NCBI RefSeq assembly: GCF_051622035.1
Contig: NC_135359.1
Location: forward strand, 28,301,501-28,365,500
Source of the DNA: Arctopsyche grandis
Taxonomy: Eukaryota; Arthropoda; Insecta; Trichoptera; Hydropsychidae
DNA: 64,000 nucleotides
Direction of reading: 5' to 3'
Every line of letters begins with the position of its first letter. Position 1 is the stretch's first letter. The position numbers and the translations under genes are program-made. The notes under the pieces are model-generated. The model saw only the letters and a program-made list of their open reading frames with translations, searched no databases and had not been told where the DNA came from. This document shows, piece after piece, positions 31,475 through 56,965 of this stretch.

Positions 31475-33552
31475 TTAGCGCCAATCACTAGATCTACGCA
31501 TCAGCAGAAGTTTTCGCCACAATTCAGGGTAATATCTTCTTAAATAACTTCTTAATTTTAGTGTGTCTTCTGGTATTTTCGGATCTTCGGTTACTGCAGT
31601 GGGTGTTATTTTTGTTCCATATCGTCCAATAAATAATATTTCCCCGGTGGTTTTCTTGATAACGAATAAAAATGGGTGATTGCAATTAAATTCATTCGGT
31701 AGAGCACTTAACTCTGCTATAATAGCTATAAAAAATACAATAAATTAATGTTCATATACGATATAAAAAAGCAGTTACATGAGGACTTATGGTCCCATTT
31801 GGATATTTGTATGTACCTGTCGCTGCTGCTGCTTCTGTACCTTCCTCGTTTATTTCTATAAAAGCTTTCTGAATAACTTTAGATACAGTGATTTTTTGAT
31901 TACCACTCAATATTCCAGACAAATCACCTTTCGATGAATCAAAGATAAGATTGATGCCGAGCTGAAATGGAATGCAAAGTTTAAGATTTATTTTCCACTA
32001 CCTATGTATCTACTAATTACCTCGAAATAATTACTCACTTTAGGTAAAACTGGGTTTAGTTCCATTTCGGTTTCTATTTTAAACTTTGGAAGCGACAGGG
32101 CTATAGAACGCACTCTTGTAATTTTATCAAAGACGACTTCTTTCAAATTCGTGGTTACGATTTTTTCTTCCAATTTCGCTAAGCCGTCTATTTTGTTTGG
32201 CAAAATTATAACCATGGATGCATCCTTACCTATGTAAGGCATTTCCAGTGCCTGAAATTAAAAAAAAAATCTAATTGAAAATATCAGTGAGTTAATTTTA
32301 GTAATCGAAAATAAAATAATGCAATAATTACCCTCGCGTCTAATGACGGAATATTAGCATAAGCATAATCTGATTTGTGACTCATCATATCGACTTTAAC
32401 TTTATCTTCAGAGTTCAAATTAAAATCTTTCGTTTCTGTTAAAGATGCGTTGAATTGTGTCTGCCATGTACCCTAATATGAATCACACGATAGAGAGAAT
32501 ATTTGTAGGCAAAAAATATTTAAAATGATTCAAAACAATTTATATTGAAAGACAATCGAACTAGGAAAAACTATTTCAATAATCCATTCACTATACTCGT
32601 TTTTTTCATATTTATTTTTAACTTAAGCTATACGTACATATTGATATATAAAAATAATAATAAAAGAATCTTTAACAGCCCACCTTAAAATAAATAGCAT
32701 TCACAAGAACCATGTTTGTGCCTCCATTTAAGTCAGAAGATTTAATTAAATCCTTTATTTTATTATTTGTTTTACTTTCAACCTGTTCATAAATCGAGTC
32801 GCATTAATTATTATCAAAAAATGAAAATTATTATTCAGCAAATAAAAATCCAATAAATACCCATTGGTTTATAGTGGAAGCTGCTTTTCCTGATTCGCCA
32901 AAGTTTATATTTTGAACCTCTGAATTGAATATTTCAACGGCTTTTTCTTGAAATTCTGGAGCTAAAGAATATCCAGGACCATCAGGAATGTAAATTTTAT
33001 TAGCAATATTCAAAGTTATCCCCTTTACGTCTTGCAATCCAGCTATTGTGGACTTAAAAGCTTCAGCACCCTAAAAAATCAATCAATCAAATAGTGCATA
33101 TATCTAACTAAAAATTAAATATTCATTATTTAACATACTGAATCTGGTAAATACAAAGCCGAGTTGAGTTCTTTCTGGGTTTCTCCTCGAGCTCCTACCG
33201 AAAGGAAACCTAACGCTATGTGAGCCGAAAGTGGAGAGCATATTGTATTTTCTTTAGTATTCAATATAGCAATTTCCTGCATAAACATATTACATACATA
33301 TTAATTAAAATTTGAATTGATACCAATAATGTGTGAGAATATTGAAATGATTACCTTATAGAATCGCGATGAAAATTGATTGATGGCATCCTTTAATGCC
33401 AAATCTTGGTTCTGTCCATTGGTGATAGCAAAAATAGTGAAAAACAGCACTAAAAAAAATATTTTATGAAAATATTGATTAATATGATATAAAATAACCA
33501 GCGTTTGTGTTATTTTATCGAAGTCATTACCGTTTATTAATAGTCGACGCAT
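31475..33552 (-). CDS. Serpin B, secreted protease inhibitor, 9 exons
   Basis: Predicted exons: 33552-33531, 33449-33355, 33276-33139, 33070-32861, 32782-32684, 32472-32332, 32251-32039, 31961-31817, 31725-31475. All use GT-AG and exons 1-8 have exactly the same lengths as in copy A, giving 437 codons before TAA. The start is MRRLLING, conserved with A; an in-frame GTG a few codons upstream is not needed. The body and hinge [11 protein letters not shown] are nearly the same as A, but the exon 9 loop reads AIIAELSALPNEF against AIIGYGASLPNEF in A. By hinge counting P1-P1' is Ser-Ala. The C-terminal tail after FIGRYGT is 45 residues, with [13 protein letters not shown] and an Arg-rich end. Likely a secreted inhibitor with a target different from copy A; target identity is unknown. 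Confidence 0.9.
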
Positions 33553-33613
33553 TATGATCACTTTATGTGTTCAAGTGCTTTTCACTTACTAACAGATCTT
33601 TATAAATTAGTCG

Positions 33614-33623
33614 CTTTTATATA
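33614..33623 (-). promoter_or_regulatory. Possible TATA box of serpin B
   Basis: TATATAAAAG on the minus strand, 71 bp before the ATG, in the same surrounding sequence as the element upstream of serpin A. Confidence 0.45.
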
Positions 33624-33916
33624 TTTTCTCAAGATCTTTAAAATCTTCTTTCTCCTTTTCAATTTTTATGTCTGATTAACATTAATGCTACTAGACAGAT
33701 TTAAAAATGTGGGATTCATATACTAAAACTTAAATAATCAGGACTTCGATCGATCGATAATTTTCAAAGCATGCTTCGGATTTTTTTATTGCATTACACA
33801 TAATAAATTACGACCCGAGGCAGAAGGAAAAATTTTCGCCTCTATGGTATTTTTTTCTTAAGCATAGCAAAGTATTTCTTAAGCAAAAATAAGATATTAC
33901 ACATATAATAGTTAAT

Positions 33917-34339
<423 letters not shown>

Positions 34340-34499
34340 GGAAGGGGGTGATAGTTGACTTGTACTTTAACAACATTTTACAAATCAATTTTCAAACCAA
34401 CAACATAATTTATAATAATATGATAATATGTAAAATATGATCAATTATATTTTTTAAATAAGAATATTGGAATAAAAATATTTTCAATATGAATTCAGT

Positions 34500-35290
34500 T
34501 GTTGCAAGTTCATAAAAATTCCGATTTTTGGTCTCAAAACTGAAACTTTTTACTCAATGACAGCTTGTTAAAAACACAATATCTATAATGTGTGTACGAT
34601 GTGTGTGGATATGTTTGTGGGTATGTTTGTGGCGGACGCGTGGATACACAGCCAATCAGAGTCAAGTGGTCGAGGAGACGTGGGGAATCGAGGAAATGAG
34701 GATGTGTAGAGCATTTGACAAGTGCGACGTCAGGCCAAGCGACGGTTGATGTTATGTTAATATATAATTTCGAAAGAGACGTTGTAAGGTTTAATGTATG
34801 TAAGGTTTGTGTAGAATCAGTTGTAAGTTGTGGCTGCGTTTTATCGATAGTTTTCTCGGGTAGTATCACGCCCTTGACTTATCTATCTAACGTGTTATAT
34901 GGGATCGGATTCTCGGTGATGTTTGTAGTACGGGCTGGCGGCTGCTCGCTTTGTTGGTTTTGAGTGGCTAGAACACTAAGCATAGTGTTCCGTTTTGTAT
35001 TTGGTCACTTTGACGTCTTTATTCGATTCATATATGTGACAGTTAAAATATTGCCAGTCATTAAAAATCGCGACGTGATAATTTTTTATGTTATCTCACA
35101 CTGGCGAATAGTGGTCCCGGCAAGTTTGTCAAGCCGGTAGTTGGCCTTGAATAGCGATAGCAGGCGCACGGTTGATACCTCCGACGCGCTATGGAGTATT
35201 TACTTTTAACACGTGTATTTTTAACCATCAAATAAATGTTCTTATATACCATAAGACGTCTTTTATAACGACCTCACACACAATCAAACG
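34500..35290. other. Unassigned stretch, no gene recognised
   Basis: Moderately GC-rich, with open frames on both strands (34534-34869 minus, 34715-34963 plus) that show no domain. It includes AACACTA/TAGTGTT inverted arms near 34973-34990 and an AATAAA near 35230. Features such as TGTGACAG at 35034 hint at a decayed LTR, but no target duplication was found. Confidence 0.3.
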
Positions 35291-35723
35291 GAAACGATGA
35301 ATATATCAGCGATCGGATATTTCAAGGAATAACATCATTGACGCAATACAAGGAGCTATCTTTCAAAACATAGGTTTGTGCATTAACTATGGGGTACTGT
35401 TACAGTTAGTATGGTTGGTTTTAAATTTAGAGACTATAATTTTATGTTAGTAGTTGGGCAACTTAACTTATGGTTATTATTTTTGAGAAATGTATATTTA
35501 CAGATTAATTCTATCTATCCTGGTTTAGCCTATACCAATCTTCAAAATGTTGATGGGCCTTTGATTGAATGTGAGTTTGGTCTCACTGAGGAAATTGATC
35601 AGGGGGTTGTCTATCTTGCCGAGAGACTTGAAGTAGTTCACGGCAAGTTTGTGTACGTGTTTGTCAAGGTAGTCAAATTTTAGGTCATTGTGAATAATAG
35701 TGTTTCTTGTGTACCAGTCGTAG

Positions 35724-36680
35724 TTACCCGCGGCACGCAAGAATTTGTTTTGAAGTCTGTAATTTGAGTATGGATCTGTTGGAGATGGTTGTGTGAGCCC
35801 ATACGGTGCTCGCATATGTGATTTGTGGGCGGATGATGGATTTATACAGCAAACACTTGTTTTTAAGCGAGAGTTTGCTGTTATGTTTACATAGTGGGTG
35901 AAGCTTTGACGCAACTGCCCTAGCTCTACGCACCGCATTGGTGATATGGGGTTTCCAGGTTAGTTTCTGGTCGATTATTACCCCCAGGTAGCGGGTAGAC
36001 GTGGTCCAGTTGACTAGTTTGTCATTTATGATGACTGGCTTGGCTGGTTTACGCCGTTTTTTACGTCTGGAGAAGAATATTGCCTGACTTTTATCCGGGT
36101 TGATTTTCATCAGCCATTTATCGTACCATGGTACTAGTTGGTCCGAGTACTTCTGGAGGGTAAGCGAGACTCCCTTGGGGCTAATGGAGCTTGCTAAGAT
36201 GGCAGTGTCATCGGCGTATTGCGCGATGTTTGTGTATCTATGGGTGGGAGTGGATATGTCGTGTGTGTAAAGGTTGAATAGTGTGGGGCCGAGGATAGAG
36301 CCTTGGGGAACTCCAGCGGAAATGTCACGCTGAGTTGACATTTGGTCTTTCAATTTGACCTGAAATTTCTTTTCTCTTAAGAAGGATGCAATGGATCGAA
36401 TTGAGTGGGGGGTGATGTTGGCGGCAATCATTTTATAAAGGAGGCCTGCGTGCCAAACTTTATCGAAGGCTTTGGTAATATCTAGGAAGATTGCTCCAGT
36501 GGACATGTTTCGGTCGAAGCCGTCTATTACGGTTTCAACGACTCTGTGTATCTGGTGAACTCCAGAGTGTTGAGGTCTAAAGTAAAATTGTGTTTTGGGA
36601 AGGAGGTCAATTTTAGCGCTCTCGTTGTTGTGATTTGAGATTAAGATCCGTTCCAGGATTTTACTCAGTGAGGAGAGCAA
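35724..36680 (-). pseudogene. Reverse transcriptase domain of the Jockey-type element
   Basis: 318-aa open run with RT landmarks in order: FRPQHSGVHQIHRVVE, FLDITKAFDKVWHAGLLYK, SAGVPQGSILGPTLFNLYTH, AQYADDTAILASS and TRYLGVIIDQKLTWKPHI. The catalytic YADD is intact here, but the reading frame is broken on both sides, so no complete ORF2 can be made. The end of the RT C-terminus is in another frame at 35938-35525. Confidence 0.85.
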
Positions 36681-37439
36681 GCTAATGTGTCTGTAGCTTG
36701 TTGCGAAGGAGGGGTTCGAAAAGGGTTTTCTGATTAGAATGATGTTGGCAAGTTTCCATTGACTCGGAAAATAGCAGATTCTGTTGGTGGCGTTTAGTAT
36801 TGTTGTGAGTGCAGCGATGGCTTTTTGAAGGAGTTCTTTTAGAGCTTTGTTGGAGATTCCGTCCGGGCCAGGGGCCTTTTAAGCGGAGATAGTTTTAATG
36901 ATTGTTAGGACTTCAAGCGGCGAAGTGGCGATAATGAGTACGGGGGCTGGGTTTTTGAGGTAGCTATTGACGGAGCTTTTAACCATTTGGCAAAAGTCGC
37001 TTTGTAGGTTGGAGTTTGATAGAGAAAACTGTTCCCAGAGACTCTCCGCTAGGGCTTCTGCTTTATCGGTGGTGGAATAGACGAAGTTGTCTCCAACTTT
37101 GATCCTATCGATTCTATTGCCGTTGCTTCTGAATATTTTTGTCAGTTTCCAGAAACCGTTATGTCCGTCTTCTAGCGCTCTGAGTTTAATATCCCAGTTG
37201 TCGTTTCGTAGTTGCCACAAGGCGTTTTTAACGTCTTGCTGAAGTCTATTCATTCGCTGTTTAAGGATAGGGTTCTTGGTCCTTTGGAATGCCTTCCTAG
37301 CTCTGTTCTTAGGGCGAATAAGATATCGGGGGGTAAATACACGAATAAGCTTGCGGGTGCAGAGGGGAGTGAGGTGTGGTAGTGGTGCTGGCTTCCAAGG
37401 CTGACTGTATTTCATCAGTGAAGATATTAATGGCGGAGT

Positions 37440-38179
37440 CTATATCTTGGGTGGTGTGAATCGAGTGGGGCTAAGAGATGGTTTGATGAAGAAGAGTTGA
37501 GAATTTTTCCTACGGAGGGTGGGATTTATAGTGACGAGCGTGTTGGCGAGTTCTACTATGACCGGGTGATGGTCAGAAGAGAGATCATTTATTACAGTCA
37601 AGGATTGCGCACCTGGAAAATTTTGGGTTAGAACGATGTCTAGAATATCGGGTCTGCCTTTGAGGTTAGTGGGGATTCTTGTGGGTTCGTCTGGGGCCAT
37701 GACGGAGAGTTTTGGGTTTGAGAGTTGGGAATAACGTTTTCCGATATATATTAGTGTTTCGGCTGTTCCATCTGGAGTGTTTGGCGTTAAGGTCACCTGC
37801 GGCAATGGTGGATTTGTTGGTGTTAAAAATGTTGTCCAAGTTGTAAGTGTTGTTTTTGTGGGTTGTAGACTGCGTCGAGGATGATGAGGATGCGCCTGTG
37901 TTAGTCCAAACTTCTATTGACGTCAGTTCTATCCCTGTGGTAATCGGCCGCGGGGCCAAGTTGTGTTGGATTGTGTGTTTGATGAATATGGCAGTGCCGC
38001 CGGTGGCTTTGCCTATTCTGTCGTTTCTGTACGTAGTGTAGTCGATTACCAGGTTTGAGCCAAGTTTCGTTTACTAGTGAGATATCAATGGAGTGTTGGA
38101 GCAAAAATAGCTCGAATTCGACACGCTTGCAGAGTATGCTGCAAGCGTTCCAGCAAAAGATCTTGAGGTATCGAGTCAT
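37440..38179 (-). pseudogene. Endonuclease domain of the Jockey-type element, frameshifted
   Basis: Apurinic-type endonuclease motifs are split over three frames: FCWNACSILCKRVEFELFLL and NETWLKPGN (38179-37901), then AAGDLNAKHSRWN (37959-37666), then SSDHHPVIVEL (37805-37440). At least two frameshifts separate them. Confidence 0.8.
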
Positions 38180-38442
38180 TTTTGTTGTTGTGTAAGTAGG
38201 GCTAGGATGGACGACATCGTCAACTGCATTTGATTGAAGCTTTCAGTCGTCCAGGGGGTTGAGTTATGGTTCTGTGTTGTGTTGGTTTGTCTTCTGTTGG
38301 TGGTGGAAGTTAGAGGCAGAAAGTTGGATTTGGAATATGAATAGTGTGGCTGAGGTTGGGGGAGCGTGGGGTTTCGGGGTTGACGGGCGTTTTTCTTGGT
38401 TTTGTTGTTGGGATTTGCAAGGCAGCCTCGGGTAGAATCAAG

Positions 38443-38476
38443 AAAAAACCAGTAACATATATTGTTACTGGTTTTT
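38443..38476. repeat. Perfect hairpin palindrome
   Basis: AAAAACCAGTAACA and TGTTACTGGTTTTT are exact inverted arms around a short TATAT spacer. The surrounding sequence (GAATCAAGAAAAAACCAGT ... GCATTTAGCG ... TATTGAAAATTAATTTA) recurs at 40788-40925, where the arms have decayed. Confidence 0.8.
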
Positions 38477-38569
38477 ACACAGGCATTTAGCGCCATCTAT
38501 TGAAAATTAATTTAGTTTAATTTTAATAAATTAATTTTTATATTGTTATGACATATTCTAGAAATCATA

Positions 38570-39490
38570 ATCTACTTAACTTAATTTATAATATAATTGA
38601 AGAAGACCTTATCTCGAAAAACTGTGCCAAAGACTTGGGTATTCTTATAGATCGTCATTTAATGAGCATTTTTACCATATAGTCACTAATTCATATAAGC
38701 TATTGGGATTTATCTGCCGAGTTGCGAAGCTCTTTAAGAATCCGCATACTCTAATATTGCTCTATGCCAGTTTAGTTCGCAGCAATATGGAGTATGCTTC
38801 AGTCATATTGTCTCCTTATTACTAAACTTATATAAATCGTTTAGAGACAATTCAGAAACGCTTTAATTAACGCCATTAATCCCATAATAATGGTCTTGTA
38901 AGATTGTTACCAACTTATAATGATAGACTCTCTTATTTTAAGATCGTAACTTTGTCTCATCGCAGAAAGGTTTCTGATTTGTTACTTTTATATAAGATTG
39001 TCAGTGGTGTCCTTGACACATTTTGAACGAAATTAATTTTAGAAATAATGCCCGATTCACCAGATGTATAAATCTTTTCTACCCACCAATTTGTCATAAC
39101 AGCACATCATTTAATAGTGCAATCGCACGGATATGCCGTTTTTACTATAGTATGGATGATTGCCCTGACCTTTTTGCTGATTATTTCAGTACTTTTAGGG
39201 CTAAGCTGAAGAAGCAATTCTGTGGTTAATTTTCTACTTCACCTTCATTGCCATTCATTATTTATTATTTTTAATATTTTTTTGTAATTTTTCTTTTTTG
39301 TTTTCTTTACATTACCTTGTGGTGCTGCACCTTTACTATAATATTTTCATTTATATTTTTATCTTTTTTGTCTCACTGTACTGCTTTACTTATAATACAC
39401 CCGATTTTAACCGGCCTATCGCTAGTGTATAGGTATAATAGTTTGAGTGGTTTTTGGATACAGATACCTTTGGTGGAATTGAAATGTAAA
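38570..39490 (+). mobile_element. Non-LTR retrotransposon 3' fragment (second RT family)
   Basis: Translates in pieces as KDLGILIDRHL, LLYASLVRSNMEYASVILSP, then an open run 39023-39229 with RFTRCINLFYPPICHNSTSF and ending LKKQFCG. These match the C-terminal region of non-LTR RTs. Stops and frameshifts are present. Decayed tails of the same family lie at 26640-26850 and 41760-41960. Confidence 0.75.
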
Positions 39491-39499
39491 GCATTTTAA

Positions 39500-40479
39500 T
39501 TGCAATCAACGATTGTGATTTTCGAGTCATACATACATACATACATATGTATATATATAATGTAATGACTCATAGTTTAAAAAAATATATAGTTAACCTG
39601 TAAGATAGTCAATCAATTTTGGCAATGTTGTCATATTATTTTCGGCAATAATTATTGATATTATTGAACATCGTTCATTTTATATTACATATTTTCGTCG
39701 AAACTATACATTATACGTTAATTTAAGAGTTCCCAAGGACAGACAAATACAAAAAAGTGGATACAAATAATCCGCCAACTGAGAAAAGAAACAGATTGGG
39801 CACCAACGACCAACACCACCATATACTTAAATTGTAAATAAATCTATATCAAAATAAAATTTTAATTTCTGTAGTGAATATGTGATGACACTGATTATAT
39901 ATTTCGTGTGTTATGGGGTAGTTATGGAGACGTGCCGCGTATTATTGACACAATTTATTTATTCATATAGGCACTTCTATTTTTATAACATTTCTCTGCG
40001 TCTAAGAGATTGCATCCAAAGCGACGAGTGTACATTTTACAGATAAAGAAACATATAATACATAACCATTATATACTTTTACATTTTTTTACATGTTACA
40101 GTGAAAGCATATTTCAAGCGAAAATATATTTTCACCAATTCAAGCAGTGAAAATGTATCAAACAATGAATTTACAACGTTTAACTCTATAAATTTAACCC
40201 TAACAACCCAATCTTAAATGAATAGGGCCAACCCTTACTTAATCTAACCTATCCTAACCCTTAAATAATACCAACCCTAACAATCTAATCTTAAATGAAA
40301 AAAAACCAACCCTGAAAATGTAAGTGGTTATGATTTCACTGAACTGTCAGTGAAAATATATTTTCACTGTGACATATACATACATATATATATGGTCAAA
40401 CATTTCAAATTACATTGCAAACATTTTTAATTATACATACATATATAATACGATCAATAAACATTTTTATACCGTACGA
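39500..40479. other. Non-coding repeat-rich stretch
   Basis: No gene seen. Contains CATA microsatellites (39530-39555, 40375-40445), a CCAACCCTAAC/CTAACCT-like degenerate tract at about 40195-40315, and sequence related to 14460-14580. Confidence 0.5.
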
Positions 40480-40775
40480 ATATTTTTGTAAATTAATCAT
40501 CCACAGAGATATCTGTAGAGAAAATTTTTATACAATCGGCGAACCAAGAGACACTGAACATCTCAAGGTTTGCGATAGAAATTGGGGAGGGAATGAAAAT
40601 TTTTACAGGAACCGTTTCAATGAAAATTAGAAAAATTGACAAATTCTGATAAGAAACGATCGACCTCGACAACCCAAGGTCTGGCCAACAACGGGACTTT
40701 AGTGGGAATCGAACCCGTGACACTCTGCACGAAAGTATACTATGCTAACCTCTAGACCACGCTGCTGGTATACTT
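40480..40775 (-). repeat. tRNA-derived SINE, minus strand, best preserved copy
   Basis: On the minus strand the head reads GCAGCGTGGTCTAGAGGTTA, then GCATAG..., then B box GGGTTCGATTCCCA. The body shares blocks with 14965-15278 and with the plus-strand copy at 9690-10110, including GATCGTTTCTTATCAGAATT and the AGATATCTCTGTGGATG segment. The tRNA part is at the right end and the truncated body at the left. It is not a functional tRNA, because the body continues without a 3' tRNA end. Confidence 0.8.
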
Positions 40776-41029
40776 ACATATAATCACGAATCAAGAAAAA
40801 ACCAGTATATATATACTGTTTGCCACCAATATTTCTTCTAGAAAAATAGTCTCCCGAGCATTTAGCGCTTTCTATTAAAAATTAATTTAATTAATTAATT
40901 AACTTTTCTATTGGTGTTTTATATTGTTAATATTATATGTAGGCAGTTAGGTAGTTTTTACTTACATATAATAAATACCCCCTGAAATTTTCATAGTGTC
41001 AGATGAAATTTTCAAATTTCAGATTTTCA

Positions 41030-41960
41030 CAGCTTCTCCGATCCATTTATGTATCTATTGTCTTGGAACGTAAAGGTCTCCAGTGGTGAGTCTATTGCTC
41101 TGTGAGAACTCCAGCGTATCTTTTGTTCGGCACTTAATGAGTCCCGTTCGCCTAATCCGGGGTCTGTATTGTTCACCCACGAATGCACTTAGACAGTAAA
41201 TACTCTCTCCCATGTTCACACGTTACAGTATGTATTTACATACATGGGTTATATTGAAATTCTTTGAAAGGTAAAAAATATACCGTTTTTTTTTCAAATT
41301 TAAATATGTATACTGTTAGTATTACAACTTCGGCATTTAAAAATATCCAATTAAATTTACAATATTTTTATTGTAGTGAATTTAAAATGAAAGCAGCATT
41401 TATTTTTTTTAATATTCATATTAATCAAATTAGTACATACATATATCAAATACATATGGCAAATTGCATTTTATTTATATAGTCTTACAGTTACAGATAT
41501 AATTTATATTCAATGTGTAAATAATACATCAAATACTTTTGCGAAATGCATACTTACTAACATAAATTATTATATGATATTTTTCAGCTGAGAAAATACA
41601 CCACATACTGTAATTAAGTAAGTCATTATTTATTCATTTGAAACAAAGGCCAAAAACACACTTTTATAAATATTTTTTATTTATTTTATTTTCAAAAATA
41701 GCTCAATAGCTTATACAAGATATTTGATATCTGTTTTAGCAGATATTAGTTTTGTTAATTTTAAGCTCGGTTCACTAGATGTTCAAAACTTTTTTATCCA
41801 CCACATTTGTATAATAATACTTCATTTAATTGTAAAATTGCACGGATATACCGTCTTTACAATTGTACAGTTGATTGCCCTTATTTGTTCTCTAACTCTA
41901 TCAGTACATTCAGAGCAAAGGTGAAGAGGCAAATCTGTGGTTGATTCATTGTCACTCATT
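41030..41960 (+). repeat. 0.9-kb dispersed repeat with RT tail remnant, copy 2
   Basis: Colinear with 25950-26850. The left end has the AGCTTC(T/C)CCGATCCATTTA block and GTAAAGGTCTCCA; the right end (41760-41950) is the decayed RT C-terminus. The 14-bp inverted repeat of copy 1 is imperfect here. Confidence 0.7.
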
Positions 41961-42599
41961 GTTTTATTAATATTTACTATGTTTTTGTATTTTTTTTTTT
42001 GTTTTTTACTGTATTACCATGCGGTGCTCACTTTAATAGGAATTAAAATATTTTATTTTATGTTTATATCTTCTTTTCGATCTATTTCTCTTTTATTGTA
42101 AATTTATTACTTTTTCTAATTATTTTTACCTCAACCGGTAGTAGTACTTTGACTCTAGAGAATCAAGGATGTTTATGTTTTTCTCACAACTTTTGGGTGT
42201 ATTGAACTAATATTTTATACCTAGAAGCTTAAGCTTAATATCACGATAATATTATATATAAAATTTGGTGAACATCAGTCAGTCATCAATCAAGTGATAG
42301 TTTACTCTTGTTCGATTTTTCTTCCACTATTTTTCACGACCCTTTAAATGTGTGTGCTCTTCTTGAAAAAAATCTAGTAATTGTAACGTTGCGACACTGC
42401 GCAGCAAATTTTGTACATCATTCGCTCGGTAACCTTTACTTATTTAAACGCCTATAAGTTTATCTTTATCACACTAAATCTTATAAAATTTGCATTATAG
42501 ACTCTCATATATGTATATATTACTGCACCAATAAGTTAAATATATAATGAATGTTAAAATGTTTATATTATAATGGTGATAATTCGATATGCGTTATAG

Positions 42600-42765
42600 C
42601 CAATTTGCACCTAGGTCTATAGTAGCTATAAAAAATACAATAAATAAATGTTCATATATGATATAAATAAGCTGTTACATGACGACTTAGTATCCCATTT
42701 GGATATCTGTATGTACCTGTCGCTGCTGCTGCTTCTGCCCCTTCCTCGTTTACTTGTACTTTCAA
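42600..42765 (-). pseudogene. Serpin exon 8/9 remnant
   Basis: On the minus strand the end of exon 8 reads VNEEGAEAAAAT up to a GT donor at 42717. It is followed by an intron matching those of serpins A and B (GTACATACAGATATCC...) and a TATAG acceptor at about 42626. Only about ten codons of an exon 9 follow (ATIDLGANW-type loop start) before homology stops. Upstream of the hinge the sequence changes abruptly into an unrelated repeat. A relic of a lost or rearranged serpin copy with yet another loop sequence. Confidence 0.8.
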
Positions 42766-43110: not shown

Positions 43111-43384
43111 TAATGAGGTGATTATGAAAGTGGTTTAAGCTAAGAAATTTAATTAAAAAAAAAAAAGAGTTCATCGTTTATTTCGGTTCACATTGTTGTA
43201 AAATAATATAATATATTTCAATGGTATGGTGCTTTTGTTTATTTTGATAATAGACTCAGTTGTATGGGTGCCGCGTCTCTTGTTACATCATTATTTTTGA
43301 GTCTATATTACTTGCAATCTAAAATTTAATTTAATTACTATTATGTCATCATCGAATAATGGCGCAGGTATCTACATATGTACA

Positions 43385-43388
<4 letters not shown>

Positions 43389-43460
<72 letters not shown>
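43389..43460. repeat. (TA)n microsatellite
   Basis: TA array of about 72 bp. Confidence 0.96.
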
Positions 43461-43463
<3 letters not shown>

Positions 43464-44189
43464 TTCGGTCTTTCGTGTCATGCGGGGAAGACGTGCTTCT
43501 GCGTTCTTCCCGCTATTACTCGCTTAAACCCGGCTATTGCACGAAATTTAATCTAAAAATTTAACCATCTAATCACTTATTTTACTAATTGCATCCTAGT
43601 ATAATTTAAGTGTAAAAATAAACAGACGATCGGCCGTTAACAGCGTTTTTAATATCAGTGATTGCGAAAAATTTTGTGTTAATTTTGTGTCAGTTACAAA
43701 AGCGTATACGAACGAGATACATCTCCCTACCTGAATACAAAAAAATAAGGGTCCCTGCTCGCCAGTCAAAATTCGGTCCCACAGAAGCAATAAATCTTCC
43801 ACATAATTGCTTTCAGACAAAAATTTTTAACGAACTTTACTTAATAGAATAATAGCAAACAGAAACGGTGTTTCCCAACTGTCTAATAGTTCTTTTTCAT
43901 ATTTAATTTATATTAAAGTAATTCGTGTAATTTTATATTCTTTACTAAATTTATTATTAAAATATTAAATTGCAAACCGCACTCACATATATAAATCCGT
44001 TGTCTCCAAAGAGGCGTCTCACGATAAAGATCTGTAAAAAAGTAGTATAACAATTGCTAATCTATTATTATCATAACTAACTACTTTCACTTACAAAGTA
44101 ACCCTGTTAAATGGCATGTAATAACTCATAAGTAATCCAAGTGATACCTAGGATGACTATCTGTCAAAGCTGACCACAGAGAAGAGTCT
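43461..44189. other. Stretch 5' of the RTE element, no gene seen
   Basis: No coding feature. Its right part (perhaps from about 43860) may be the 5' UTR of the RTE element, but I found no repeat copy in the window to set the boundary. Confidence 0.35.
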
Positions 44190-47147
44190 ATGGCGGTAAG
44201 AACTCACTCCTTGAATGGAAATCTCTCTCAAGTACCGCCTTTTTCTCAACACATCTTGGATAAATGCGAGAAAAATAATATCCAAACCTCCAACAAGGTA
44301 AGAGTGACGATGGATGATAGCTTAGCTAATAGAAACCTGTATTTAGCCACGTACAATGTAAGAACGTTATCGAGTGAAGGAAGTGTGCTTGCATTAGAGA
44401 ATGAATTAGAAAATATCAAATGGGATATAATAGGACTTAGTGAAGTAAGACGAAAACAGCAAAACCAAATAATCCTAAAAAGTGGTAACTGTCTCTACTG
44501 GAGAGGGCTACCAAATGGTAGAATAGGAGGAGTAGGGTTTCTTATCAATAAGAGAATAGAAAGAAATATTATAGAAATAAGCGACATATCGGAACGTATA
44601 TGCTATATAGTATTAAGAATCTCGAGCAGGTACACTTGTCAAATCTTCCAAGTGTACGCCCCCACATCTAGCCACCCAGACGAGGAAATAGAAGACTTCT
44701 ACGAAAAAATACAGGACGCATACGATAATAGCCGTCACCACTTTAAAATAATCATGGGCGACTTTAACGCAAAAATAGGACAAAAGGCAAATACTGAAAG
44801 AGCAGTAGGCAATTTTGGTACCGGCCAAAGAAACGACAGAGGCGATCGCCTCATAGAATTCGCAGAACACAACAGGCTCTTTATCACTAATTCATTTTTC
44901 AGGAAAAACACCAACAATAAGTGGACTTGGGAGAGTCCTAAAGGAGACAGAAACGAGATCGATTTCATCCTAACAAATGCCCTGCACTCCGTTAAAGACG
45001 TTAGTGTTTTAAGTAAAGTAGATATAGGTAGCGATCACAGATTAGTCCGTGCCAAGATGGCCATTAATATAAATTGCGAACGTAGGAAATTAATAAAAGG
45101 ATGCAGTAACTCTCCAGATTTCGCTCAACTAAGGTCTAGGAAAAAGGAATTCGAACTCGAACTTGGAAATCGATACGGGAAATTAAACCCAGAAGCAGAC
45201 ATCGAGGAATTGAACACTGTAATTAGTTCGGTTCTAACCTCAACAGGTAAGAAATTAGGTGGATTCAGGAAACAGATTAAATTAAGCAAAATTTCAGCGG
45301 AAACAAAAAACCTAATTAAGCATAAAAGGAATTTAGATAGGGATAATAATAAGCAAGAATACAATCTAGTAAATAAGGAAATTAAAAAGAGAATAGTCAG
45401 GGATGTCAGGGATTTTAACAGCAAGCTAATAGAAAATACCATTAAGAATAACCGTAGCCTGAAAAAGTGCAAACAGGATCTTTTCTTAGGCAAAAACCAA
45501 ATGATCGCAATCAGATCAGAGAGCGGAGTAATAATTAGGAATAGAGAAGAAATCATAGACAGAGTTTACACGTTCTATGCAAAACTATACGAGAACGACA
45601 ACGGCCAATTCCCCGCTCTGGAATCGACACACGGCCAAAGGGTTCCTGCAGTATTGCCTAGCGAAGTAGAGGCCGCGCTAAAAACTGCAAAGAACGGTAA
45701 AACCCCAGGGGAAGATAATATTCCCATTGACTTACTAAAATGTGGCGGCCCCCCCCTAATTAATATCTTAGCTAGGCTTTTCAGCAAATGCATCCAGAAC
45801 CAAGTTATACCAGAAGGATGGAATAACGCAACTATCATTTTAATACACAAAAAAGGCGACAAAAGCGATATCAAGAACTACCGACCCATTAGTCTACTTT
45901 CAGCGGTCTACAAGCTCTTCACGAAGGTTATTACAGAAAGGCTGAAGAATATCCTCGACGAGAACCAACCTATAGAGCAGGCAGGGTTTAGGGCAAATTT
46001 CAGCACAATGGACCACCTCCAAGTAGTTGGCGAACTAATCGAGCGCGCCAACGAATATCAACGGCCATTGTGCCTAGGTTTCGTCGATTATGAGAAAGCC
46101 TTCGATACAGTTAGTCATAATGCAGTACTTAACGCTCTAAAAACACAGGGAGTGCCGGAACCCTATGTGGGACTGTTAGCTGCAATATATAAGAATGCCA
46201 CAGCTTCGGTTAAAATTTTTTCAGGTACAGATAGATTTAGCATAGGAAAAGGAGTAAGACAAGGAGATACAATCTCGCCCAAGTTATTCAATGCGGTGCT
46301 TGAGGGAGTTTTCAGGAAATTGGATTGGGATACAGCCGGAGTAAGCATCAATGGTCGCTTTTTGAGTCACCTTCGGTTCGCAGACGATATAGTTTTAGTA
46401 GCTCGTGATTCAGCTGACCTACTTATCAGACTAACACAGCTGGACAGGGAAAGTAGAAAAGTAGGATTAAAAATTAACGTAGATAAGACTAAACTAATGT
46501 TCAATAGTTATTGCATGCCTGATAGCATCCCCTTAGATGATAAACCAGTAGAAGTAGTAAATAATTATTTATATTTAGGTCAAATAATTGACATGTCTGG
46601 TAGTAAAAATGAAGAGATAAAGAGACGTATGAAATTAGGGTGGAGTGCATTTGGACGGATGAATGCTGTTTTTAAATCAAAAATGCCACTCTGCCTGAAG
46701 AAAAGGATCTTTGATCAATGCGTTTTGCCAGTGATGACGTATGGATGTGAAACTTGGACACTGAACGCCAAGATGCAAAATAAAATCCAATGCACTCAAA
46801 GAAGTATGGAACGCTGTATGCTTGGCATAACGAGGAAAGACAGGAAGCGGAACACGTGGGTGAGAAATATGACAAGGGTAGTGGACATAGTGGATAGAGT
46901 GAAGAGATTGAAATGGCAATGGGCGGGTCACGTAGCTAGGAGGATGGACGAAAGGTGGACAAAAGAAGTGCTTGAATGGTACCCGAGAGAAGGCAAAAGA
47001 GTAAAAGGAAGACCGCAAGGAAGATGGGTGAACGAAATTAGGAAAATGTGCGGAATGAGATGGATGAGTGTTGCGCAAAACAGAGACGAGTGGAAGCGTG
47101 TTGGAGAGGCCTTCATCCAGCAGTGGATGGCGAATGGCTGTAAATGA
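44190..47147 (+). CDS. RTE-type retrotransposon ORF: endonuclease-reverse transcriptase, 985 aa
   Basis: One uninterrupted frame. The N-terminal AP-like endonuclease shows ATYNVRTL (about residue 53), LSEVRRK (about 82), GDFNAKIG (about 189) and GSDHRLV (about 281). The RT shows NGKTPGEDNIPIDLL (about 502), YRPISLLSAVYKLFTKV, QAGFRANFSTMDHL (about 598), VDYEKAFDTV (about 632), GVRQGDTISPKLFNAV (about 688) and the catalytic FADDIVL (about 730). The C-terminal part has WAGHVARRMDERWTKEVLEW and GRPQGRWVNEIRK, which together with a single ORF and a short 3' end fits the RTE clade. The protein would nick target DNA and reverse transcribe its own RNA there. All key residues are present, so this copy looks recent and perhaps competent. 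A second possible start is MDDSLANRN about 40 codons in. Confidence 0.95.
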   Translation: MAVRTHSLNGNLSQVPPFSQHILDKCEKNNIQTSNKVRVTMDDSLANRNLYLATYNVRTLSSEGSVLALENELENIKWDIIGLSEVRRKQQNQIILKSGNCLYWRGLPNGRIGGVGFLINKRIERNIIEISDISERICYIVLRISSRYTCQIFQVYAPTSSHPDEEIEDFYEKIQDAYDNSRHHFKIIMGDFNAKIGQKANTERAVGNFGTGQRNDRGDRLIEFAEHNRLFITNSFFRKNTNNKWTWESPKGDRNEIDFILTNALHSVKDVSVLSKVDIGSDHRLVRAKMAININCERRKLIKGCSNSPDFAQLRSRKKEFELELGNRYGKLNPEADIEELNTVISSVLTSTGKKLGGFRKQIKLSKISAETKNLIKHKRNLDRDNNKQEYNLVNKEIKKRIVRDVRDFNSKLIENTIKNNRSLKKCKQDLFLGKNQMIAIRSESGVIIRNREEIIDRVYTFYAKLYENDNGQFPALESTHGQRVPAVLPSEVEAALKTAKNGKTPGEDNIPIDLLKCGGPPLINILARLFSKCIQNQVIPEGWNNATIILIHKKGDKSDIKNYRPISLLSAVYKLFTKVITERLKNILDENQPIEQAGFRANFSTMDHLQVVGELIERANEYQRPLCLGFVDYEKAFDTVSHNAVLNALKTQGVPEPYVGLLAAIYKNATASVKIFSGTDRFSIGKGVRQGDTISPKLFNAVLEGVFRKLDWDTAGVSINGRFLSHLRFADDIVLVARDSADLLIRLTQLDRESRKVGLKINVDKTKLMFNSYCMPDSIPLDDKPVEVVNNYLYLGQIIDMSGSKNEEIKRRMKLGWSAFGRMNAVFKSKMPLCLKKRIFDQCVLPVMTYGCETWTLNAKMQNKIQCTQRSMERCMLGITRKDRKRNTWVRNMTRVVDIVDRVKRLKWQWAGHVARRMDERWTKEVLEWYPREGKRVKGRPQGRWVNEIRKMCGMRWMSVAQNRDEWKRVGEAFIQQWMANGCK

Positions 47148-47183
47148 TGATGATGATGATGATATATATATATATATATATAT
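47148..47183 (+). repeat. (TGA)n and (TA)n tail of the RTE element
   Basis: Directly after the stop codon come repeated GATGATGAT units and then TATATA. RTE elements typically end in short tandem repeats rather than poly(A), so this probably marks the 3' end of the element. Confidence 0.75.
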
Positions 47184-47477
47184 GTGTATTTAAAATAATA
47201 ATAAAAAATTCTGTTCATTATGTCTTAATATATGTAAAGAAACAGATTCTTCTCTAAAAAAAATCTTTTTTTTTGTATGTTAAGCAAAATTTTAAATATT
47301 TGAAACGAAAGAAACATGACCTTGACCACTGTCATAATAATGAGCATAATTCGTTTTTTTTTATTTTAAAAACGGTCTTATATTTGAACCTTAATTTTTT
47401 TTATTTCCGTATAAGTTACATGCAAAAATAATTTGTGAAAATAAAATATAAATCTAGTAAACTAAAAATGTATTGAA

Positions 47478-47690
47478 TTGTAAATAGGTTTTTGAGCTCT
47501 TTTTCCTAGTATGCTATACATTCACATTAGAATAATATAATACTATGATTACTAACAAAATTAAATTAGAATTGTAAAATAGAAAATGACCGGTAGATCA
47601 GTAGCTATTAAAATAGATATAAGATTTACGAGTATTGTGAACAGAATTTCGTAATGATAAAAAGCATTTAAAAATCAAAAAAATCATTGT
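47478..47690 (+). mobile_element. Jockey-like 3' UTR fragment
   Basis: Matches the 3' UTR at 20735-20930 and 30540-30700: GTAAATAGGTTTTTGAGCTC, GATCAGTAGCTATTAAAATA and AAAAAGCATTTAAAAATC. No coding part remains. Confidence 0.8.
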
Positions 47691-47994
47691 ATTGAAACAT
47701 TGTGTTGTGAAAATTAAAAATATTTTTTAATCAATTCAAACGTAAACCTTTAAATGTCTCGAAACGAAAGAAACATTAATTTGACCACTTTCATAATAAT
47801 GAGCTCGTATAAAGGCCTTGTCACCCGTAGATCAAGTCCTGGAGTTGAAAATCTGGGTCAAATGTATGAAATTTTAACTGCCGTTCAAAATTTGAAGAAT
47901 AATCATGTAGGGAATTAATTGAATATAAAAAATATACATATTTAGATAATAATAACTTAATTCAAATTTGTCAATTAAATATTTTATAAGACAC

Positions 47995-48242
47995 TTAACG
48001 GTATCGTCTACCTCTATGCGCCAGTTGAGGTCTTCGCCACAAATGGGAATAATATCTCCTTACATAGCTGTTGCAAATCAAGTCTTGTGGTACTTTTGGT
48101 TCTCCGGTTACTGTGGTTGCAGTAATTTTTGTTCCATATCGTCCCATAAATAATATTTAACCAGTGGTATTCTTGATCGCGAACAAAAATGGACGGTTGC
48201 AGTTGAATCCATTTAAAAGAGGTGATGGCTCGGTTAAAATTG
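47995..48242 (-). pseudogene. Lone serpin last exon (exon 9) with in-frame stop
   Basis: An acceptor TTTTTATAG at the 5' end leads into the same phase as other serpin exons 9. The loop reads AILTEPSPLLNGFNCNRPF, then LFAIKNTTG and a TAA at 48159-48157, where intact copies have GAA. Beyond the stop the frame continues open as ILFMGRYGT and the tail NSYVRRYYSHLWRRP to a final TAA. Its length equals exon 9 of serpin A. Upstream, an intron-8 remnant is interrupted by a non-LTR fragment (48255-48895), and no exon 8 follows. Its 3' flank matches those of serpins C and E. It is a relic copy. Confidence 0.88.
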
Positions 48243-48254
48243 CTATAAAAACGT

Positions 48255-48895
48255 TATTTTAATTGTATGTTTTTAATATTTAATATTTAATATTCAACTA
48301 AAATTTATCAAATCCTAACGCTACCGTTTTCCTATCAATGTCCTATCCTTTAACAATCTTTCTTCAGGCGACGACTCACTGGTGCTACATTCCTTTTTAA
48401 GCTCCTAAATGGTTTCCTTTATTGTTCCGATTTACTGAGTAAGGTTGGTTTCAGGATCCCAGTTAGGTATTCTAGACTCGTTGCACTCTTTTCACTTAAT
48501 CCTTTCAAAACCAATTCCCTAAAATATTCCTATCTGCAGCGTGCTTATCGTATGTTTAACGGGGAGCTGATGATAATGATCTATTCGGTATTTCCTTGCA
48601 TCAATTCAGGACTGCCATCAGGAGAGTCTTGATTGATTGATCCATTTTCTATTTCTATAATGTAATCTTTATCCAATATTATATCACTTTATGTTTAGTT
48701 ACGTACATTTAGACATGTTTTAGGTTTTATCCTTTTCTTTTTCATTTGTTTGTCTCTATGTACCATTTTATGTAATTTTTAAAAATCTATAATTGGACTC
48801 GGGTGTTGTTTTATTTTGTAAAATTTATTCTTTATTTTTATGAATTTCTAAGTTTCTTTTCTGTTGATTTTTCAATAAATAAATAAATATTATAA
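48255..48895 (+). mobile_element. Non-LTR RT fragment inserted in serpin intron 8
   Basis: Plus-strand copy of the family at 21030-22170. It includes TTCAGGCGACGACTCACTGG, the GTATGTTTAACGGGGAGCTG segment and the 3' end TTTTTCAATAAATAAATAAA. Serpin intron sequence resumes after it (TAATGACTTACAAATACATT). The same arrangement is seen at 55440-56235, next to serpin D exon 8. Confidence 0.8.
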
Positions 48896-49859
48896 TGACT
48901 TACAAATACATTTAAATATTAAATAAAAATATTACGGTATAAAATTTATAATTTCTATTACATGTAAAAAATATTTCTGTCTGATTGGGTTAGCGGCTTG
49001 GGGGGATAATTGAATCCAAAACCTTTAAATAAAAAGGACACCTACATATGTATTTATAAGGGGCGGTAACATTCCCGGTCAACTTAAAAATTTAACGTCC
49101 TGTCGATAAGAATTTCAGTAACCGATACTAAGCTTTAGTTCGGTAGGACGAACGGTGTTCAAAAAATCGTGATCTGCGATTCTGAATTCGAATCAGTCAA
49201 AATCTCGAATTTTCGCATGATCACAAAACTTCGTCTATTGTTACTACGTACATGCATTGACAAAGTAATAAAATTAAACTCACGATATTTTTGTGAGTTT
49301 AATTTTATGGGCCTCTGCCCCAGTAAATTTACAATGGGCCTCTGCTATTTTTTAATATTAATCAAGTGAATATCTCAAATATACATAATTTAAAAACAAA
49401 TTGTATTTTATTTATTTAGTTCAAGAATAAATGTGAATCAAATACTCATATATCAAGTAATGCGTATTTACTTACATAAATTATATTTTTCACCTGAAAA
49501 AAGACACCACGTACAGCAATTAAATCATTATTTATAGTATTCGTTTCAAACAATGGCCAAAAAACGCAGTTGCGTCAATATATGTACGATGTACATACAT
49601 GTTTGCACAACATTTTAATTACGCAGTGCACATTTTCGTTGGTTTTATTATTTTCCCAATCTTTCAAATCATTCGCCATCATCTTGGGAATTATGCATAT
49701 ACATAATGTGGGAAAAATATTATTTGTGTTTTATGAATGCAATTATTTTTAAATAATCTAATTCAATTTCATGAAAATAAAGTATTTTTTATTTGCTCTG
49801 CTTTAAGCGTTTTTAGTTTAAAATTTGCAATTTTTCTTCATATTTTTACGAATCTCGTT

Positions 49860-50640
49860 ATTACGAGATAAAATTTTCGCGACAATGAAACTGTGCGGTG
49901 TTATAAATCACTTCAAAGTGAAACGAATTGAAAATCCCCAGACAAATAACAGTATTCTCGGTAGTAGTCTTGAGAAAACGTTGCAATGTATCCTGATCAT
50001 ATAATTGTAAGTTTTTCTTACCTCAACAGTGTAGTCTGAATAATAAATTGTCGTCGGAAAACGCACTAATAAATTTGAATACGATTTCCACCATTTAATA
50101 TGACATTGTTATTGTGTTATGCGTACTTATTTCCGGTTTCAATATTATTCACCCCGCTTATAATCGATTTCCGATAGATTTTACGTCGGCGGTTTAATTT
50201 ATTTGTGCATAAAACTCATGAAAATTTCGATAGATGATAGAATATATGAAAATTTCGCGAGATTCCTATCATGCAAATTACTGAGGTTAGGTGCTGTGTG
50301 TGTGCTAGAAGAAGCATCTAAAAGAAATCATTTAATCATCAATGCTTCTCCCTTTCAAATTCTAAGGGTTTCATTTGTGGTTTCAGAGATATAGCGGTTT
50401 AAATTATTTCTTTACACAATTTTTCATCTGAAACTAAATCACTTCAAAGTGAAACGAATTGAAAATCCCCAGACAAATAACAGTATTCTCGGTAGTAGTC
50501 TTGAGAAAACGTTGTAAAGTATCCTGATCATATAATTGTAACTTTACACAATTTTTCACCTGAAACCAGTTGCAGTCCATAAATGGGTTAGACAAGTTAA
50601 GGTTGGGGTTGTTCATCAATCATTCACGCCAATGGCGTAG
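49860..50640 (-). other. Repeated coding-like segment of unknown origin
   Basis: On the minus strand the phrase QLYDQDTLQRFLKTTTENTV then ICLGIFNSFHFEV appears twice (about 50005-49900 and 50545-50440) and again at 60280-60165, preceded in the 50.6 and 60.3 kb copies by NPFMDCNWFQVKN. The three copies keep the frame through this phrase, but no start, stop or splice pattern makes a gene. Related sequence at 42820-42900 reads differently. I do not recognise the protein. Confidence 0.35.
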
Positions 50641-51798
50641 CGTGAATACCAGGCAACCCCCTGTAAAATATTTAGACACCCCTCCCTCCCCCAAATATAT
50701 TCAAATTATTTTCTTACCGCCAAATAAATTTCCAAAATAATAATTCATATCTTTTTTTCTGAACTTTTTTCCGGCAAACACTTTTTAAAAAAATATTTTG
50801 TTGAAATTCATATTATTTTTCCTCTCAGGTACAATACTTATAAGCTCTTATCCTTTTAGTTGATGTTGTGACATATGCAGTTGACGTAATTTTAATTAGT
50901 TCCAATTTCAAACGAAGTAATTTTTAATAAGTTTCAACTTCGAGAACGAGCTCTCCGAAGTGGCTACAGTTACCGAACACATGAGGAACAAGATGATTGG
51001 AATAACGAATTTATAGAATAATTACAAATGAAGAGCTTCGCCGAAGTATGAAAACTGACGATCTTCTTTATTTTTATAAGGTTTATTTTATTTTAAGCAC
51101 GAACGGAAATCAAGCACTTGATTAGACGATGATTTGTCAAAATCATTGTTATATTGGTCGGTTAGAGATATGTACATTTATGTATCTCAAAGTGCATTCA
51201 TGGAATCTAATCTGGATTACCAACTAGTCGGGCACAATCTCTTGCTGGTGAATTTTCCTTAAAAACTTCCCACCTGTCAATACTGACAGCGAAAATATTA
51301 TAAATTTGTAGGTTTTATTGGTTTTCACGCCTCGTGTAATTTTCTTTTATTGTTTAAGCACTGAAAAAATATATATGTATGTACAATAATAAGAGAATTC
51401 TCAGCTTTATATACATAAATAAAAATAAAAGAAAAAGAGATGCAATAATAAGAGAGGTTTTTAAAAAGCTTTGTCCAATGTGTAGATGCAGCATCTGTAC
51501 TGGATCAAGCTGCACTCTCACACATCGTCCATTCTCCTTATTGTCGTGTAATAAATATTTATAGCACACACTATACAATATCTAAGAAGAAACGCAAGAA
51601 AAAACAACTTGGATTCGACCGTTCATCGCTAATAGCTCTTGGCCGGAGCCGGGATATATAGTAAGCAATTTTAACTACAGGTCAATATTTGAGGAAGAAT
51701 CTTATAGGGAATTAATTGAATATAAAAAATATACATATAATATTTAGATGATAATCATTTAATTCAAATTTCAGTCAATTCAATATTTTATAATCCAC

Positions 51799-53861
51799 TT
51801 AACGGTATCGTATACTTCTTTGCGCTAGTCGAGGTCTTCGGCACAATTGGGGATAATATCTCCTTAAATAGCTGTTACAAATCAAGTCTCGTGGTACTTT
51901 TGGTTCTTCGGTAACTGTGGTTGCAGCAATTTTTGTTCCATATCGTCCCATAAATAATATTTCACCAGTGGTCTTCTTGATTGCGAATAAAAATGGACGA
52001 TCGCAATTGAATTCATTTAATGACTCGGTTAAAACGGCTAAAAAACGTTACGTTAATTTATATGAATGCATTTAATATTTTAATGACTTTCGAATGCATT
52101 TAAATATACCTGTCGCTGCAGCTGCTTCTGTTCCTTCCTCATTTACTTCAATAAAAGCTTTCTGAGTAACTTTAGAAACAACGATTCGTTGATTTCCACT
52201 CAATATTCCAGATAAATCACTTTTCCCCCCGTCAAAGATTAGATTGATTCCAAGCTGAAGTTAAACGCAACATTTTACATCAATTTTCAGCTATCTATGT
52301 ACATATGTGCGTACACGTGTACAAATGTATAATAAAACTATATTATAATAATAACTGACTTTTGGTAAAACTACATCAAGATCCATTTTGGTTTCTATTT
52401 TAAACTTTGGAAGCGAAAGGGTTATGGGACGTGGTGTTGTAATTTCATCAAAAACGACTTCTTTCAAATTCGTACTTGCTATTTTTTCTTCCAATTTCGA
52501 TAAGCCATCTATTTCGTTTGGCAAAATAATAACCATGGATGCATCCTTACCTAAGTAAGGCATTTCCAATGCCTAAAATTAAAAAAAAAATCAAATTGAA
52601 AATATGAGTGAGTTAATTTTAGTAATCGAAAATAAAATAATGTGATAATTACCCTCGCGTCTAATGTCGGAATATCAGCATAAGCATAATCTGATTCGTG
52701 ACTCATCATATTAACCTTGACTATTTGGTTAGAATTCAAGTTAAAATCTTTTTGCTTTGTTAAAGTTGCATCGAATTTCGTCTGCCACGTACCCTTATTA
52801 AATGAAAATAAAAATAATATTTTGAAATAAAATTCTTTCAATATTTTGAAAAAAATTGAAAGATATAAAAACATTTTCTTAAGTTATAATATACAAATTA
52901 ATCTCAACTTTCAATATATTGCATTTCTATTACGATACTAAAAGTAAATTAAAAACGTATAAAATAGCCTACCTTGAAATAAATAGCATTTACGAGAACC
53001 ATGCTTGTTCCTGCACCTAACAAAGAAGGATCAATTAAATCCTTTATTTTATTATTTGTTTTACTCTCAACCTGTTCATAAATCGAGTCGCATTAATTTA
53101 TATCAAAAAATGAAAAGTATTAATGAATTTCAGCAAATAAAAATCCAATAAATACCCATTGGTTTATAGTGGAAGCTGCTTTTGCTGATTCGCCAAAGTT
53201 TATATTTTGAACCTCTGAACGGAATATGTCGACAGCTTTTTTTTGAAATTCTGGAGCTAAAGAATATCCAGGACCATCAGGAATGTAAATTTTATTAGCA
53301 ATATTTAAAGTAATCCCTTTTACATCTTGTAATCCAGCTATTGTAGACTTAAAAGCTTCAGCACCCTAAAAACCCAATCAATCAAATACTGCATATATGT
53401 ATGTATCTTATTTTAAAATTAAATATTCATTATTGAACTTACTGAAACTGGTAAATACAAAGCCGAATTGAGTTCTTTCTGTGTCTCTCCTCGAGCTCCT
53501 ACCGAAAGGAGCCCTAATGCTATGTGAGCCGAAAGTGGAGAGCATATTACATTGTCTTTAGGATCCAATACAGAAATTTCCTGTAAGCATTAAATATAAT
53601 TAAAATTACTAACAATAATTTACATATATGTAAAATAAATGATTGAAGAATACCTTATAGAGCCGCGTTGAGAATTGATTGATGGCATTTAATAACAAAT
53701 CTTGGTTCTGCCCATTGGTGATAGCAAATAACATAAAGATTATAACTAAAAAGATCACAAAATTACATATATAGATTTATTTTGAATTTATTAATTATTA
53801 TTACTACATAGATTAATTCAGTTGTATCATAATTATTGCCTTTTATTATTGATTGGTGCAT
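51799..53861 (-). CDS. Serpin C, secreted protease inhibitor, 9 exons
   Basis: Predicted exons: 53861-53840, 53745-53654, 53580-53443, 53365-53156, 53071-52973, 52793-52653, 52572-52360, 52254-52110, 52037-51799; 432 codons before TAA. The first intron uses a GC donor (AAAAG|GCAATA); the other junctions are GT-AG. The signal peptide starts MHQSIIK and continues hydrophobic. Exon 5 has NAIYFK, exon 8 ends in [11 protein letters not shown], and the exon 9 loop is [16 protein letters not shown]. This is three residues shorter than in A and B between hinge and NEF. Counting from the hinge gives Leu at P1 and Asn at P1'. The tail after MGRYGT is 44 residues and contains two Cys ([16 protein letters not shown]) and an Arg-rich end. 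Sister copy is E. Confidence 0.88.
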
Positions 53862-56225: not shown

Positions 56226-56254
56226 TAATGACTTACAAATTCATTTAAATAAAC

Positions 56255-56892: not shown

Positions 56893-56965
56893 CTTATTAA
56901 ATAAAAATTAAAATAGCATTTGACATTATATTGAACGAAATAATAAAATTTTCTTTAGTTATAAT

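Follow-up and report, generated by a model that had tools for sequence, protein, structure and literature searches.

A cationic C-terminal tail encoded by the last exon of clustered serpin genes in Arctopsyche grandis

Serpin genes with an extended last exon

The window analysed here, a 64,000-nt stretch of contig C5 in the 476 Mb genome of the trichopteran Arctopsyche grandis, contains four complete serpin genes (A, B, C, and E), all on the minus strand and each made of nine exons on a common plan, together with a lone relic of a ninth exon (D). Rather than ending soon after the last strand, the serpins of the window carry on with a tail of 45 residues after GRYG in A, C, D, and E and of 46 in B, where the tail extends 47 residues past the end of the Pfam Serpin match. 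The initial annotation had described a tail of 44–47 residues past the serpin end, in line with these counts, and had placed it at 31475..52037; that span covers B, D, and C, whereas the same tail is also present in A and E outside it.

In each intact gene, part of the reactive loop, the last strands, and the tail are encoded by the single exon 9. Gene A, defined by its exon boundaries and spliced reading frame, lies at 22820..24925, with exon 9 at 22820..23067, the tail codons at 22823-22957, and the stop at 22820-22822. Gene B (31475..33552) encodes 437 residues, and its exon 9 (31475..31725) holds tail codons at 31478-31615 and the stop at 31475-31477. The corresponding positions are 51799..53861 for gene C (exon 9, 51799..52037; tail, 51802-51936; stop, 51799-51801) and 61470..63510 for gene E (exon 9, 61470..61708; tail, 61473-61607; stop, 61470-61472). 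All introns of the four genes are of the GT-AG type except intron 1 of C and E, which has a GC donor (at 53839 and 63488, respectively, minus strand); A, B, and the neighbouring gene F described below have GT at this point. Relic exon D (47995..48242, minus strand) carries one internal TAA while its tail frame, 47998-48132, is open, and a tblastn search of the window found no further exons belonging to it.

Residues 29-390 of the 437 in B match the Pfam Serpin family (PF00079) with an E value of 2.7e-112, which places the protein in the serpin superfamily, and B shares 83-93% of its body residues, as well as the exon plan, with A, C, and E. The small-residue hinge that marks inhibitory serpins precedes the reactive loop in all four proteins, and each starts with a hydrophobic segment that, judged by eye, resembles the signals marking secretion. 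Because of this start and the hinge, A, B, C, and E look like secreted serpins of the inhibitory type. The best relatives among solved structures are alaserpin, serpin K, and serine protease inhibitor 4, which we take to be Manduca and Drosophila proteins.

Further serpin remnants on the minus strand of the window comprise relic exons 6-8 at 56250-56904, the last of them interrupted by a stop, and a fragment of another exon 8, from around the hinge, at 42717-42758. Exon 5 is identical over its 99 bases between A (24030-24128) and B (32684-32782), both on the minus strand, while exons 6 and 7 differ by 8-9%; gene conversion is a possible candidate cause of this identity.

The tail within and beyond the cluster

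All four intact copies follow one tail plan, K-I-x3-VTE(D/E)PK(I/V)P, then SYLRRYYP, L(W/C)R(R/K), and an Arg-rich end, just as the initial annotation had proposed from VTE(D/E)PK(I/V)P onwards. Relic D carries a variant of this plan (VTGEPKVP, SYVRRYYS, and LWRR) and continues beyond its internal TAA in frame to the same stop as C and E, which bears out the earlier statement that the frame is kept in the relic. Two extra tail Cys residues, likewise claimed earlier, were seen in both C and E, and D has one of them. The Cys of FNC, which had been assigned to all copies, is indeed present in all five of the window but not in the neighbour F, which has FNI instead.

Tails of this kind had been described for the window copies, all of which carry them, yet they are not confined to the window: five more serpin genes with cationic tails were found elsewhere in the genome, and it is SYLRRYYP that belongs to the window cluster only. 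Gene F lies at C5:28.376 Mb, about 10 kb beyond the window, and has a KIA...VTE.P spacer and the end TRPRPTFPPWWPRLPYRQRSPRYYR. The three genes G1-G3 are located at C3:32.755-32.774 Mb; the Pro/Arg-rich composition of the G1 tail is seen in VIYPTPKPRPRKTRTPNPRATRKYTKRFL, G1 and G3 end with VIYPTPKPRPRKTRTPNPRATRKYTKR(F/C)L, and G2 is the same up to PRATR and then has another end. Gene H, at C3:20.855 Mb, has a QGD-containing spacer and ends with CRRRD. A 329-base stretch with the end of the G3 tail and the following sequence is present in two identical versions about 2.2 kb apart (L020 2301-2629 and 4505-4833), the second of which is either a recent duplication or an assembly artefact.

The charge plan of F, G1-G3, and H is similar to that of the window tails, whereas their sequences are different. 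Net charges range from +4 to +7 in A, B, C, and E, amount to +6 in F, and rise to +9 to +11 in G1-G3 and H. In each of the seven tails tested, positive charge is higher in the second half than in the first, with p values of 0.015-0.041 for five of them taken singly. Helical amphipathicity, in contrast, was unsupported in 7/7 tails, the best being C and E, for which 7% and 6% of the shuffles were as good. Searches with the tails alone gave no Pfam family for A, B, C, F, and G1 and a single chance match for H (E 2.9); among solved structures in the PDB, no match was obtained for the tails of F and A and one chance match for G1 (E 0.5).

In the body tree, F groups with A, B, C, and E (94/98) and G1-G3 group together (100/100), whereas the deep forks are open, so that a single origin with losses is not told apart from several origins. 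The body of F differs from A and B at a synonymous divergence (dS) of 1.05-1.09 and from C and E at 0.91-0.93. When the whole F tail was aligned globally with those of A, B, C, and E, its scores were matched by only 2, 1, 0, and 0 of 2000 shuffles, compared with 383, 152, 383, and 335 of 2000 for the last 24 residues alone; thus, the spacer is shared with F, but the comparison does not establish this for the basic end. In ten local comparisons between the tails of different groups (500 shuffles each), the A-C pair beat all shuffles and A-H all but 11, and the other eight were equalled by at least 40 of the 500.

Frame, selection, and rarity of the tail

The GC content of the tails is 0.40-0.45 and falls to 0.16-0.25 over the 150 bases that follow the stop, and the indels that separate the copies are whole codons. 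In A, B, C, E, and F, the first AATAAA or ATTAAA occurs 25-67 bases past the tail stop, and none is present between the core end and that stop. When A/B is compared with C/E, the ratio of nonsynonymous to synonymous divergence (dN/dS) is 0.49-0.59 for the tail and 0.26-0.35 for the body; the tail value is 0.15 between C and E (3 differences) and 0.06-0.31 among G1-G3. Given the GC contrast, the in-frame indels, the dN/dS values, and the lack of early polyadenylation signals, the tail looks coding. The first three of these, with dN/dS below 1 between the clades, set the tail apart from chance. The view that it is ancestral to the window copies is supported, and on the sequence evidence the tail predates the duplications that formed the window cluster and has been kept in frame.

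Within exon 9, the reactive loop diverges far more than the adjoining tail in both close pairs. Between C and E, the 21 bases of the loop contain 6 replacement changes and no silent one, against 1 and 2 in the 135 bases of the tail (Fisher p 1.6e-5). Between A and B, replacement changes number about 9.8 and silent changes 3.2 over the 30 bases of the loop, against 6 and 2 in the tail (p 2.7e-5), all of these being small samples.

A census of the same genome returned 146 exon matches to PF00079, and the last exons outside the tailed groups and outside a gene with alternative last exons served for comparison. This census printed 22 stretches plus L078, of which 20 were readable (L078, L079, and L090 stand outside the count), and 19 of these 20 stop at most 13 residues past the match; reading ended before the last exon at loci near C6:22.25 and 22.28 Mb, at some on C7, and at one near C3:32.74 Mb. 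The comparison supports the conclusion that the long tail is unusual among the serpins of this genome. The one exception among the 20, L089 at C6:22.271 Mb, continues into a long extension rich in Q, N, and S that is stop-free in the stretch read, and a large serpin cluster at C6:9.19-9.36 Mb (L080-L088) has last exons with mostly FCGKYIGA-like ends and without a tail.

Manduca serpin-1 has alternative last exons, each providing another reactive loop. Twelve reactive-site variants are named in the reference list of PMC3278429, the part of that source relied on here. A gene comparable to this type is present at C3:20.873-20.891 Mb, with 12 candidate alternative last exons, at C3:20.873-20.889 Mb, that each carry another reactive loop (their acceptors were not checked singly, and one of the 12 was joined later). 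In A-E, too, exon 9 holds the start of the reactive loop, but A-E are separate genes with a single tailed last exon, whereas 10 of the 12 candidate exons stop at most 8 residues past F-x-G and are tail-less; the other two extend 23 and 28 residues, the longer one being basic.

Among prokaryotic serpins (17 found, 16 read, L041 being left out), 15 of the 16 stop 3-8 residues past the match, and L030 extends 13 residues past a longer match. Thermopin and aeropin are prokaryotic serpins with a C-terminal tail past the fold, and in thermopin this tail, packed onto the top of sheet A, is linked to stability in thermophiles (PMC8233489, as far as the accessible part of the article goes). The tails described here likewise lie beyond the serpin fold, but they carry positive charge and exceed in length the 3-8 residues of those 15 prokaryotic relatives. 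A whole-protein search of viral contigs gave no relative. One viral-contig match to exon 9 (L016) was rejected as a phage protein, apparently of the sulfonucleotide-reductase type, that shares RRYYPELW by chance.

As far as seen, a serpin with a tail is a known kind, whereas a cationic insect version was not met: a search of titles and abstract openings, with most subscription papers and any insect sequence collection outside its reach, gave no insect serpin with such a tail. The question whether the tail is an already known common feature of serpins, raised together with its first description, was thus answered in the negative for the literature and the solved structures as searched. The 'serpin' peptide of PMC9315633 was set aside as an unrelated Cys-rich sequence, judging from the available portion of that source.

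Besides the serpins, the window contains a 996-codon open frame at 44157-47147 on the plus strand that, by eye, looks like a LINE-type endonuclease/reverse transcriptase, and one contig end of the genome consists of CCTAA repeats.

Possible roles of the tail

Judged from sequence, the tail may act as an attached anchor, a released peptide, or a protease exosite. We tentatively favour the first of these, giving it somewhat less than an even chance: the tail may be an electrostatic anchor on inhibitory serpins. The last exon would add a nearly neutral, Pro-containing spacer and then a cationic end in which Arg and aromatic residues abound, and the tail would stay attached to the serpin, where it may keep inhibitors that differ in their loops at a common type of anionic surface, such as a matrix glycan, a microbial surface, or a clot. 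An anchor for surfaces of this kind would be well served by a spacer that leads into Arg, aromatic, and Pro residues. The principle would be that of alpha2-antiplasmin, in which C-terminal lysines are the first to touch plasmin, although the sequence is another one. Besides the contrast between loop and tail in the close pairs, this reading draws on the hinge, on the kept frame with its GC and dN/dS values, on the positive net charge of all nine intact tails and its bias towards the second half, on the lack of a Pfam family, and on the similar charge plan of F, G1-G3, and H. The loop would set the target protease and the tail the place, with the loop changing as expected of a bait that faces changing proteases. 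Since the tail is kept in C and E beside a changing loop, it probably meets a partner shared by the copies.

Several observations weigh against the anchor. By dN/dS, the tail changes faster than the body, and between A and B its value reaches 0.89 (8 differences). Silent changes between A and B are raised in the loop too (dS 0.67, compared with 0.07 in the tail), so that recombination between copies may partly cause the contrast seen in this pair. The charge asymmetry is significant singly in only 5/7 tails, with p values of 0.17-0.24 in B and F. Moreover, in a chance control of 2269 open 42-mers from the window, the real tails included, 531 reach a net charge of +5 overall, 116 reach +6 in the last 25 residues, 58 have at least 7 Arg, and 6 have at least 9 Pro plus Arg in the last 25 residues. 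In the open frames of the window, cationic stretches are not rare, and composition alone is weak evidence; the case for the tail rests on its kept frame and its place.

Alternatively, the tail might be a cargo, namely a cationic antimicrobial peptide, Pro/Arg-rich in F and G1-G3 and Arg/aromatic-rich in A-E, that is released by a protease from the serpin as its carrier, which we regard as unlikely. Apidaecin, drosocin, and pyrrhocoricin are proline-rich insect antimicrobial peptides, and most peptides of this type are shorter than the 20-residue limit of the PDB set searched. The ends of F (TRPRPTFPPWWPRLPYRQRSPRYYR) and G1 (VIYPTPKPRPRKTRTPNPRATRKYTKRFL) recall their composition, and the Pro/Arg-rich cationic character is common to F and G1-G3; in contrast to these peptides, the tails are fused to a serpin and matched no family or structure in Pfam or the PDB, and those of A-E are rich in Arg and aromatic residues rather than in Pro. 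A cleaved C-terminal fragment of 40 residues, derived from a triatomine serpin, was detected in haemolymph, although it represents the normal serpin C-terminus (PMC3898217, from the portion of the paper available). The tails show no clear amphipathicity, unlike a classic released peptide of the helical type, and visual inspection of A-E gave no dibasic site before the basic part. A 24-residue query made of the basic part of A returned A and B alone from the genome and no separate peptide gene, a result of low reach that says little on such genes because the known copies C and E were missed as well. A broader and still slightly less probable version is that the lineage acts as a carrier of defence peptides, in which one exon joins a fast-changing bait loop to a detachable cationic, partly proline-rich, antimicrobial tail. 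Attack by a microbial or immune protease would then couple inhibition to peptide delivery, and the unlike tails in separate serpin groups would mean that the peptide has been renewed repeatedly while its carrier stayed the same.

Rather improbable, in our view, is an exosite that docks on the target protease or a cofactor and speeds inhibition, as the tail of alpha2-antiplasmin does with plasmin. The precedent consists of a serpin body with a C-terminal tail of about 55 residues that contains basic residues for first contact, its C-terminal lysines being the first to meet the plasmin kringles (PMC7785519, according to the accessible text of that source). The tails of the insect serpins are of similar length and carry basic residues, but these are Arg rather than Lys in A-F, the tail sequence differs, and an insect plasmin or kringle partner is not known. 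The 12-residue N-terminal extension of alpha2-antiplasmin with its cross-linking Gln was not seen in the window serpins, for which no alignment was made. The C and E tails are nearly the same despite six loop replacements, which fits a shared partner better than a target-specific one.

We doubt even more that the tail is a tolerated read-on with little function, left open by inheritance after loss of an old stop. The faster change of the tail relative to the body, the A/B value given above, and the unlike tails of different groups would agree with this, but the constraint between the clades and among G1-G3, a tail GC far above that of the following sequence, and a tail shared with F at a body dS of 0.91-1.09 argue against it. 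Very unlikely is an exon 9 spliced or ended before the tail in the main product: the G1, G3, and H tails contain AATAAA or ATTAAA, and early splicing is conceivable because exon 9 of A, B, C, E, and F has donor-like sites with scores of up to 6 of 9, as good as some of the accepted donors of B (5-8), but the frame is kept, and in those five genes neither hexamer occurs between the core end and the tail stop.

Few serpin tails past the fold have been described. A gene cluster that combines a conserved cationic tail with fast-changing loops would provide a natural test of whether the module that sets the place is separate from the module that chooses the protease, and the Pro/Arg-rich tails are direct candidates for peptide assays.

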